Positions 16,393 to 19,468 of a DNA stretch of 64,000 bases are shown here, in pieces. A model generated the notes under the pieces. It was not told the DNA's origin, made no database searches, and worked only from the letters and a program-made list of their open reading frames with translations. Within the stretch, counting starts at the first letter, position 1, and every line of letters starts with the position of its first letter. The DNA comes from Verrucomicrobiota bacterium JB022 (GTDB lineage: Bacteria > Verrucomicrobiota > Verrucomicrobiia > Opitutales > Oceanipulchritudinaceae). A program made the translations under genes and the position numbers. The DNA is taken from assembly GCA_030673845.1 (NCBI GenBank), contig JAUTCQ010000017.1, positions 434,001-498,000 of the forward strand. The letters run 5' to 3'.

Positions 16393-17169
16393 TTAATTCC
16401 CCGCCGGCACCAGCCGGTAGCGGCCTGTCACCTCCACCTTCAGCTCGGTATCGCCGGTAGAGAGGCCGGGTAGGGACTTAACGTTGCGGGAGAGGTAGTT
16501 AACCTCAGTTTCAAATACCTCGGCTACTGCGTCCGTCACGCGTGCATCGGTGTAGCGTTGAAGCGAAAAGGAGACCAGCTCCAGCTTCATGCCGCTCATG
16601 TTGCCATAGCTGGCGGCGCGGGCTTTCAGCTCGGCAAAGGCCTGGGTTTCCAGATCGGCCCAGAGGGTCTGGTCAAATTCACGCTGCGGCTGGATGCCGT
16701 CGAAGGTGACCCGATTGGAGCCGTCGACGAGGCTGGCGAGAGCGATGAACTCCGCGTTGTTGCGGATCGTGACGCTCACGCGGCTGTTGAGCTGGTAGCT
16801 CTTCACCTTGTCCGAAAACCAGCCTTGGTTGGCGTTGCTGGTGAAGCTCTGGGTGTGGATCGCGTCGTCGGCAAAACCCTTGGCCTTGAGGGCCTGGCGG
16901 ATGCGATTCTCTTCCCGCTGCAGGGCGCTGAGCGCGTCGTTGAGCGTGCGTTCCTCGACTTCCAGCTTCAGTTGCACCTCTGCCTGTTGGGCTTCGAGCA
17001 GCTTGGTGGCGGTCGAGCTGAAGCTGATCTCGGGGTGCTGCTGGTCGGCGAGCAGGATGTTGCGCAGCTCTTCCGGCGTGCCGGTGTAGGTCACCTCCGC
17101 GCGGGCGGCGGCGGGCAGGGCGAGGCAGAGCAGGGCGCAAGTGGTCAGCGGGCGAAGAAATGAAATCAT
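16393..17169 (-). CDS. SIMPL (DUF541) domain periplasmic protein
   Basis: A 258-residue exported protein. The N-terminus (FLRPLTTCALLCLALPAAARA) is a signal peptide. The remainder fits the SIMPL/DUF541 family: EVEERTLNDALSALQREENRIRQALKAKGF, then DAIHTQSFTSN, SRVSVTIRN and a C-terminal LKVEVTGRYRL strand. Family members are periplasmic or outer-membrane oligomers, often linked to oxidative-stress tolerance; their biochemical role is unclear. The gene converges with the permease gene and its 5' side faces a 590-base region that contains a repeat and the ilvB leader. Confidence 0.85.
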   Translation of the reverse strand: MISFLRPLTTCALLCLALPAAARAEVTYTGTPEELRNILLADQQHPEISFSSTATKLLEAQQAEVQLKLEVEERTLNDALSALQREENRIRQALKAKGFADDAIHTQSFTSNANQGWFSDKVKSYQLNSRVSVTIRNNAEFIALASLVDGSNRVTFDGIQPQREFDQTLWADLETQAFAELKARAASYGNMSGMKLELVSFSLQRYTDARVTDAVAEVFETEVNYLSRNVKSLPGLSTGDTELKVEVTGRYRLVPAGN

Positions 17170-17280
17170 GTCGATGGGATTAAGAGGTTTGGCCGGCCGA
17201 TGTCGCCGGTCTTCAAAGGGTAAACGCGGCAGGGGTGGGGAATCTTAATGAGAAATTTTAGATAACGAAGGGGAATTGTC

Positions 17281-17434
17281 TGGCACCCAAAGGGTGCAGC
17301 TCGTCGTTAACCGGAAGCCGGAAGTCTTCGCTACGCTCGAAATCCGGCTAGTTGCTGGCAAGCCAAGGCTTGCGGATGATGCAGCAGGCGACTTCCGGTG
17401 GGGAAGCCCTGAAACAAGCACCCTTTGGGTGCCA
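17281..17434. repeat. Hairpin-ended intergenic element, copy 2 (154 bp)
   Basis: The 17-base left end TGGCACCCAAAGGGTGC (17281-17297) is a perfect inverted repeat of GCACCCTTTGGGTGCCA (17418-17434). Each end is itself a hairpin (GCACCC / GGGTGC). Inside are CCGGAAG and GACTTCCGG in inverted order, as in copy 1 at 14451-14729. Both copies are preceded by TTGTC. It is non-coding and lies 70 bases upstream of the ilvB leader peptide. It looks like a REP/BIME- or MITE-like element; no transposase gene is in the window. Confidence 0.82.
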
Positions 17435-17503
17435 ACAGAGACGCGAAACGCATTTTCCGCGCTTGACACTTCCGGCCGAAGCCGCCACTGCTGAGCCTCG
17501 AAC

Positions 17504-17596
17504 ATGATTTCCTTCGCCCATCGCGCTGTAGTAGCGCTCGTAACCGTAGTCCTGGTACTTGTAGTAGGTATCAGCCCGGTCGAGCGTGCGCGGTAA
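17504..17596 (+). CDS. ilvB leader peptide (IvbL-like), 30 residues
   Basis: A short frame, ATG 17504 to TAA 17594-17596, upstream of ilvB. Its middle reads VVALVTVVLVLVVGI (residues 9-23). In all 30 residues there are 9 Val, 3 Leu and 2 Ile, the three branched-chain amino acids made by the pathway. Seven of the nine valines use GTA (17528, 17531, 17540, 17546, 17555, 17561, 17564); reading ilvB codon by codon I found no in-frame GTA. An intrinsic terminator follows 30 bases after the stop and ilvB starts 162 bases after it. This is the standard design of an attenuator leader, as in enterobacterial ivbL. No clear ribosome-binding site precedes the ATG, which is the weak point. Confidence 0.8.
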   Translation: MISFAHRAVVALVTVVLVLVVGISPVERAR

Positions 17597-17657
17597 AAGA
17601 GGAAGCCAAAGAAAATTTCCTGAAAGCCCCCGCCGGATCGACCCAGCGGGGGTTTTT
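17578..17657 (+). promoter_or_regulatory. Attenuator: alternative antiterminator and terminator stems
   Basis: The terminator stem is CCCCCGC (17627-17633) with GCGGGGG (17646-17652), extended by A-T pairs and followed by TTTTT (17653-17657). A competing pairing is visible: GGTCGA (17578-17583) with TCGACC (17638-17643) and GCGG (17590-17593) with CCGC (17630-17633). That pairing would take the 5' arm and loop of the terminator. The left half lies in the last codons of the leader peptide, just after the Val-rich block. A ribosome that reaches the stop would cover it and let the terminator form; one stalled on GTA codons would leave it free. The stems are read from sequence; the switching is inferred. 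Confidence 0.7.
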
Positions 17658-17758: not shown

Positions 17759-19468
17759 ATGAAACTGAATGGAGCCGACCTCATTATTCGCCTGCTCGAG
17801 CGGCAGGGCACACGCCTGATCGCCGGGATCCCCGGTGGCGCCAACCTGCCGATGTATGACGCCCTCGCGCGTCGCCCCGTCATCCGCCACATCCTCGCCC
17901 GCCACGAGCAGGGTGGGGGCTTCATCGCGCAGGGCCTCGCCCGTGTTTCCGGTCAGCCCGCCGTGTGCTTTGGCACCAGCGGCCCCGGCGCGACCAACCT
18001 CCTCACCGCGATTGCGGATGCCAAGCTCGACTCCATCCCGGTGGTCTGCATTACCGGTCAAGTGCCGCAGACGCTGATCGGTACCGACGCGTTTCAGGAG
18101 GTCGACGTTTTTGGCCTGAGCCTGCCCATCACCAAGCACAATTACCTGGTGAAGGACGTGAAGGAGCTGCTGACGATCATCCCCGAAGCTTTCCGCCTCG
18201 CGCAGAGCGGCCGCCCCGGCCCCGTGTGGATCGACGTGCCCAAGGATGTCCAGCTGGCGCAGATCGAGATCGACGAATGGCCGGAGCCGGGCACTGCCGA
18301 CGCCCCGCACGAGCCGGAGGCCGAAGCGATTGCCCAGGCGGTCGACATGATCGTCAAGGCGCAGCGCCCGGTGCTCTACCTCGGCGGCGGCATCATCCAT
18401 GCCGAGGCCAGCGCCATCGCCCTCAAGCTGGCCGAGCGTGCGCAGTTGCCGACCGTTTCGACTTTGATGGCCCTCGGTGCGATGCCGCGCGGGCACGATC
18501 TCGACCTCGGGATGCTGGGCATGCACGCCGCGCCCTTCACCAACCTCGCGTTGGAAGAGAGCGACTTGCTGATCGCCTGCGGTGCCCGCTTCGACGACCG
18601 CGCCACGGGTAAGGTCGCGCAGTTCTGCCCGAACGCCAAGATCATCCATATCGACATCGACCCGAGCGAGCTGGGCAAGATCAAGCAGCCGACCCTCGCC
18701 ATTCAAGCCGACGTCCGCCGCTCGCTGGAAGAGATTTACCAGCATGTGCCGACGCTCGAGCGCCCGACCTGGAAGGCCCATGTCGACGAGCTGCGCCGCG
18801 AGCACCCGCTCGACCTCCCCGGCTGGGAAGACCCGCGCACCCACTACGGCCTGCTCAATGCGGTCGCCACTGCCATTCCGGACGCGATCGTCACGACCGA
18901 CGTGGGCCAGCACCAGATGTGGACGGCGCAAGTCTACCCCTTCCAGCGCCCGCGCCAGTGGCTGACCAGCGGCGGCCTGGGCACGATGGGCTTTGGCCTG
19001 CCTGCCGCCATCGGTGCCGCCCTGGCGGAGCCGGAGGCGACGGTCGTCTGCATCACGGGCGACGGCAGCTTCCTCATGAACAATCAGGAAATGGCCGTCG
19101 TGGCGGAAGAAAACCTGAACGTGAAGATCGTGCTGATGAACAACCAGACCCTCGGCCTGGTGCACCAGCAGCAGACGCTCTTCTACGGTCAGCGCCTGAT
19201 GGCCTCCCGCTTCCAGTGCGCGCCCGACTTTGTGATGATGGCGGCTGCGTTTGGCATCAAGGGCTACGACCTGGCGGACGATCCCGACCCGGCGCAGACG
19301 CTGCAGCATGTGCTGAAGCGCCCGGGCCCGGCCCTGATCAACGCCCCGATCGACCGTATGCAGCACGTTTTCCCGATGGTGCCCCCTGGCGGCGCCAACT
19401 CGCAGATGATCCGCTCCGTGCCCATAGGGGAGCCGACGGCACACGCCGGGGCCGAAAACGCGGTGTAG
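17759..19468 (+). CDS. ilvB: Acetolactate synthase, catalytic subunit (IlvB type)
   Basis: A 569-residue ThDP- and FAD-dependent enzyme that condenses two pyruvates, or pyruvate and 2-ketobutyrate, in the first common step of branched-chain amino acid synthesis. The ThDP-activating glutamate is E50 in [12 protein letters not shown]. The ThDP/Mg motif is GDGSF (~434-438) with the closing [25 protein letters not shown] and [10 protein letters not shown] are also standard. The block after the motif ([16 protein letters not shown]) is closest to the ilvB isozyme, the one that in enterobacteria lies behind an IvbL attenuator. It is followed by a strong terminator and no ilvN small subunit, so the regulatory subunit must be elsewhere or absent. 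Confidence 0.94.

Follow-up and report, generated by a model that had tools for sequence, protein, structure and literature searches.

Transcription attenuation is a textbook mechanism that has been studied mainly in enterobacteria. The closest described relative of the locus presented here is ivbL (b3672)-ilvBN of E. coli K-12. Common to the two are an enzyme of the IlvB (AHAS I) type, a Val-rich leader peptide 30-32 aa long, a 1:2 pairing, an antiterminator in which the final leader codons pair with the 5′ arm of the terminator, and a near-identical GC terminator about 24-29 nt past the leader stop. The present locus differs from E. coli in its host, a member of the Verrucomicrobiota, in its Val control codons (GTA, vs GTG/GTC in E. 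coli) and in the C-terminus of the leader peptide (PVERAR vs GNAP). Its lineage also lacks ilvN after ilvB, which E. coli has.

Leader-peptide attenuation of enterobacterial ilvB was described by Hauser and Hatfield (1984), as cited in PMC10272879, and is suspected for other ilvB motifs (PMC10272879). The Corynebacterium ilvB-II / ilvBNC leader also carries a BCAA-rich uORF and a terminator/antiterminator before ilvB (PMC10272879, PMC11857589); it represents a different lineage and a different RNA, and Corynebacterium glutamicum gave no PRK08155 match in our control search. BCAA-codon-rich uORFs likewise precede ilvB in the ilvB-OMG and Leptospira ilvB RNA motifs (PMC10272879), which were compared by description only; no Rfam leader family matched the present loci. 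A 2010 survey put the known range of leader-peptide systems at Proteobacteria and Actinobacteria alone and extended it to Firmicutes (PMC2965389). Such attenuators have been described for ilv genes in Actinobacteria (PMC1262725, PMC10272879) and for non-ilv genes in Firmicutes (PMC2965389). The original prediction, a classical attenuator in front of ilvB outside the Proteobacteria, is therefore right about the host but, with these precedents, not new as such. Nothing relevant on attenuation or leader peptides in Verrucomicrobia was found in the literature searched, a key 2010 survey lying outside that search. The mechanism is known; its occurrence in this phylum and its spread are apparently unreported in that literature.

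Organization of the ilvB leader region

The window (the whole stretch of 64,000 nucleotides that was analysed) belongs to a Puniceicoccaceae/Opitutales genome. Features of the leader region are given in Table 1; the positions originally assigned to the leader, the terminator, the competing arms and ilvB were all exact. The ATG of ilvB lies 162 nt downstream of the leader stop. The 5′ neighbour of the leader-ilvB unit (16393-17169) is on the opposite strand, so the plus-strand terminator should affect only transcripts that start in or just before the leader.

Table 1. Features of the ilvB leader region of the window.
Feature	Position	Strand	Basis
Putative -35 element of leader promoter, TTGACA	17463-17468	+	6/6 match, about 40 nt 5′ of leader ATG
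Leader ORF (ivbL-like), 30 codons, MISFAHRAVVALVTVVLVLVVGISPVERAR	17504 (ATG)-17596 (TAA)	+	Val-rich leaders in homologous loci; GTA bias
Val control codons of leader	17528-17566	+	GTA is 7 of 9 leader Val codons
1:2 protector hairpin formed by regions 1 (17520-17562) and 2 (17563-17594)	17520-17594	+	predicted fold; own-pair advantage
Antiterminator 5′ strand (region 2), GGTCGAGCGTGCGCGG	17578-17593	+	within final leader codons
Small spacer hairpin AGGAAG/TTTCCT inside antiterminator loop	17600-17621	+	predicted folds
Antiterminator 3′ strand (region 3), CCGCCGGATCGACC	17630-17643	+	overlaps terminator 5′ arm and loop
Intrinsic terminator (3:4): CCCCCGC (17627-17633), 12 nt loop, GCGGGGG (17646-17652), TTTTT (17653-17657)	17627-17657	+	shuffles; same hairpin in relatives and E. 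coli
ilvB	17759-19468	+	acetolactate synthase large subunit, E. coli IlvB (AHAS I) type

Seven close relatives keep the putative -35 element, as do several others. Besides the window, loci L036-L040, L120, L121, L125, L126 and L128 have TTGACA as a 6/6 match, at a similar spacing from the leader ATG. The -10 box of the putative promoter and the ribosome binding site of the leader ORF are both weak. At L043 and L045, CTTTGACA lies only about 10-20 nt 5′ of the assumed leader ATG; this spacing is too short for the -35 box of a transcript that includes the assumed start, so the leader start or the promoter may differ there. Immediately 5′ of the leader promoter is a palindromic element (17275-17440, ends TGGCACCCAAAGGGTGC ... 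GCACCCTTTGGGTGCCA) with 46 full or partial matches across the genome; it looks like a dispersed REP/MITE-like repeat.

Leader peptide and control codons

The 30 leader codons comprise 9 Val, 3 Leu and 2 Ile, and the core has Val/Leu/Ile at 9/10 positions. Both strands of the window were sampled in 846 stretches of 420 nt, and a short ORF with at least 8/10 Val/Leu/Ile was seen in five only. In our reading these five, which score 9/10, overlap and all contain the leader; provided that this is so, no other sample exceeds 7/10. The GTA share of the leader Val codons (Table 1) compares with 3.7% in neighbouring genes (P = 3e-9), and ilvB itself has no GTA among its 38 Val codons. The same bias was observed in the leaders of L036, L038, L120, L121, Sumerlaeota and Pseudodesulfovibrio, and was not found in those of Pelagicoccus, the tested Opitutaceae or E. 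coli. Among relatives the peptide is conserved in its Val/Leu richness only and has otherwise diverged in sequence; Pfam and NCBIfam searches with the leader peptides returned nothing credible. Thus, the Val-rich 30-codon leader proposed before ilvB is present in the sequence, and its Val codons are conserved among relatives.

Terminator, antiterminator and 1:2 hairpin

The predicted strong intrinsic terminator between leader and ilvB is also borne out. With its T tract the hairpin reaches -19.9 kcal/mol, and 200 shuffled versions of the leader-ilvB gap gave nothing as stable (best shuffle, -8.0). It was not reported by a standard terminator scan of the window, because the loop limit of the scan is 8 and the real loop is 12 nt.

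The competing stem pairs GGTCGA (17578-17583) with TCGACC (17638-17643), plus GCG(C)GG with CCGC; two positions in the middle of the antiterminator stay unpaired. In the window sequence alone this stem does not exceed chance expectation: stems as strong arose in 271 of 1000 shuffles. The claim that a competing stem overlaps the terminator was correct as to the arms, and its backing comes from other species. Pairing of the leader end with the terminator arm was -21.9 kcal/mol for a locus's own arms and -16.9 kcal/mol across species (n = 50 loci). This advantage of 5.0 kcal/mol compares with an own-minus-cross difference of only -0.04 +/- 0.24 kcal/mol for shuffled leader ends, and it was gone once the leader segment was slid at least 20 nt upstream. 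In a permutation test on 25 thinned loci, which does not fully remove shared ancestry, 0 of 50000 permutations reached the observed mean. Within the close clade of the window, 93% of antiterminator cells are paired, vs 19-54% in slid versions, and three antiterminator pairs have changed on both sides; five sequences were compared, and the shuffle control is therefore moderate. Covariation was uninformative in the close Opitutaceae group A4, where changes were one-sided only. Conserved Val codon runs and covarying stems, put forward at the outset as a conservation test, were found when the relatives were examined.

A 1:2 hairpin, absent from the original prediction, is predicted to mask the antiterminator strand, and in the predicted fold it completes the classical 1:2 / 2:3 / 3:4 layout. 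Its own-pair advantage is -3.4 kcal/mol (shuffles, -0.5 +/- 0.4), and support for this pairing is weaker than for 2:3. The AGGAA...TTTCCT of the spacer hairpin is likewise seen in L036. In predicted folds, nascent RNA ending at 17645 forms the antiterminator and full-length RNA forms the terminator. Since the terminator is predicted to be more stable than the antiterminator in the full-length RNA, switching must be kinetic.

Proposed mechanism

These features point to a ribosome-mediated transcription attenuator that sets ilvB expression according to charged tRNA-Val (Leu and Ile to a lesser extent), a homologue of E. coli ivbL-ilvBN inherited with ilvB. We give this reading a probability of about 0.9. 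In the mechanism that we infer, from the transcription start through leader translation and ribosome stalling to the switch, RNA polymerase would start slightly 5′ of 17504 and a ribosome would then translate the leader. With ample Val-tRNA, the ribosome would reach the stop codon and cover the leader end (17578-17596). The segment 17627-17652 would then be free to form the terminator, and transcription would stop near 17657. With scarce Val-tRNA, the ribosome would stall on the GTA-rich run and disrupt the 1:2 hairpin, releasing GGTCGAGCGTGCGCGG. The released strand would pair with CCGCCGGATCGACC while the 3′ arm of the terminator is still to be transcribed, and the polymerase would continue into ilvB. 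If the leader were not translated, the 1:2 hairpin would keep the antiterminator strand and termination would follow by default.

Enzyme type and ilvN

IlvB of the window matches NCBIfam PRK08155 with 934.6 bits (cut-off 870), and across 14 control genomes this model matches E. coli only. No ilvN was found downstream of ilvB in the window or its clade, and several other lineages also lack it there. A short IlvN directly follows ilvB in E. coli, most Gammaproteobacteria, Thermodesulfobacteriota, Sumerlaeota, Latescibacterota, the Planctomycetota locus and some Opitutales. The presence of ilvN after ilvB is a feature of the operon and not of the attenuator. The attenuator may have outlived its usual operon partner, or ilvB may now share the other subunit. 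The only IlvN/IlvH-like gene of the genome (C24:115768-116241) is on a separate contig from both ilvB copies. The second ilvB is of the canonical type (C15:22483-24213), is 43% identical and has no Val leader.

Distribution of the leader-ilvB unit

Loci with this IlvB type were collected from a genome scan, a phylum sample and E. coli K-12, giving 57 loci, three of which are duplicates. Those from the genome scan represent Opitutales, Gammaproteobacteria, Thermodesulfobacteriota, Sumerlaeota, Latescibacterota, Planctomycetota and one Bacillota. By rule-based detection, a Val-rich leader and a terminator are present in 53 of the 57, the terminator usually lying 14-34 nt past the leader stop. 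In the remaining four, the leader is weaker (L061 and L125), the locus is cut by the contig end (L068), or no leader precedes the IlvB-type gene (L076, Bacillota). In the Verrucomicrobiota sample this IlvB occurs in 13 of 388 genomes, all with the leader, one of them weak. Among named genomes, that of Puniceicoccaceae bacterium 5H is the closest (84% IlvB identity). An attenuator of the ivbL-ilvB type in Verrucomicrobiota, as predicted, is corroborated by relatives that keep the leader, Val codons, terminator, antiterminator and order.

Canonical (non-PRK08155) ilvB copies of the relatives had originally been picked as negative controls for the leader. In Opitutales, a Val-rich leader ORF was seen in 9 of 41 such loci, a few of them same-genome repeats (L017, L020, L027, L031, L032/L156, L035, L026/L140, L146). 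A GC-rich inverted repeat often lies directly 3′ of these leaders; a T tract is mostly missing, but present in L017. They possibly form a second, unrelated leader class with another mode of control.

Probable homology with E. coli ivbL

A covariance model (R1) trained exclusively on 16 Opitutales sequences recovers the E. coli ivbL region with 37.8 bits (E 1.2e-6), and it also matches the corresponding site in most other phyla. Non-IlvB control loci score at most 18.4 bits. The next-best match in the genome of the window reaches 30.4 bits on C15; as a second attenuator it was rejected, since it is an ordinary terminator that follows frr. The E. coli match thus exceeds it by a genuine but limited margin. 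Rfam searches of the window and its relatives, at gathering and relaxed thresholds, found no leader family, and the E. coli ivbL attenuator itself has no Rfam family match either. Weak His_leader matches at the relaxed threshold were terminator-like and far under the cut-off, and were discarded.

In the IlvB tree, monophyly of Verrucomicrobiota is rejected (AU p = 0.0005) and that of Gammaproteobacteria marginally only (p = 0.044). The position of E. coli in this tree is poorly supported and lies among Verrucomicrobiota, Thermodesulfobacteriota and Planctomycetota. Leaders are present on either side of the deep splits. The leader-ilvB unit occurs in six phyla, and the tree does not track phyla; where a phylum is represented by one or two loci, individual metagenome bins may be contaminated. 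From sequence comparison, the attenuator of the window appears to be homologous to that of E. coli ivbL-ilvB, beyond a shared design, and the simplest reading is that ilvB and attenuator were inherited and transferred as one unit.

Discussion

An independent origin of the attenuator in Verrucomicrobiota, with mere resemblance to ivbL, would agree with peptides that differ outside the Val run and match no leader family. We consider it improbable. The enzyme subfamily and gene order are the same and the spacing is similar; the terminators are near-identical (Pelagicoccus CCCCGCCGGCGCAACCCGGCGGGG vs E. coli CCCCGCCGGCGCAAACCGGGCGGGG); R1 matches E. coli; and the leader is found on either side of the tree's deepest splits.

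Two further explanations concern the function of the region. The hydrophobic Val/Leu core could cross a membrane, and the short ORF might encode a real small membrane protein with its own ordinary terminator, ilvB having a separate promoter. Such a protein would hardly account for a peptide conserved in nothing beyond Val/Leu richness, for GTA being strongly favoured in the leader and missing from ilvB, for final codons that co-vary with the terminator arm, or for a unit bound to one acetolactate synthase type across six phyla, and we regard it as very unlikely. The switch could also be real and respond to a general slowdown of translation or to an RNA-bound metabolite (riboswitch) instead of Val-tRNA charging, ppGpp riboswitches being known in the ilvB leaders of some bacteria (PMC10272879). 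This appears the least probable of the three: Rfam yields no match over the cut-off and none credible at the relaxed threshold, the Val codons are conserved, and the only strongly conserved RNA core is the terminator. Attenuation through Val-tRNA charging thus remains the preferred reading.

The distribution of this unit is wider and more mobile than we found described. We see roughly even odds that AHAS I-type ilvB with its attenuator is a self-contained cassette that has moved among six or more phyla, its switch preserved, the enterobacterial ivbL-ilvBN being a twig and not the source, while lineages re-tune the control codon (GTA vs GTG/GTC) and can lose ilvN. Attenuators require ribosomes, tRNA and RNA polymerase and no regulator protein, so they should function immediately in a new host. 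A gene that brought its attenuator along would be under control as soon as it arrived. The ivbL-ilvB attenuator, with stems supported by comparison, is now seen in Verrucomicrobiota and several little-studied phyla, and the collected loci make the idea of a gene that travels with its regulation testable. Since GTA use varies among related leaders, the same set of loci also allows the theory of control-codon choice to be tested.
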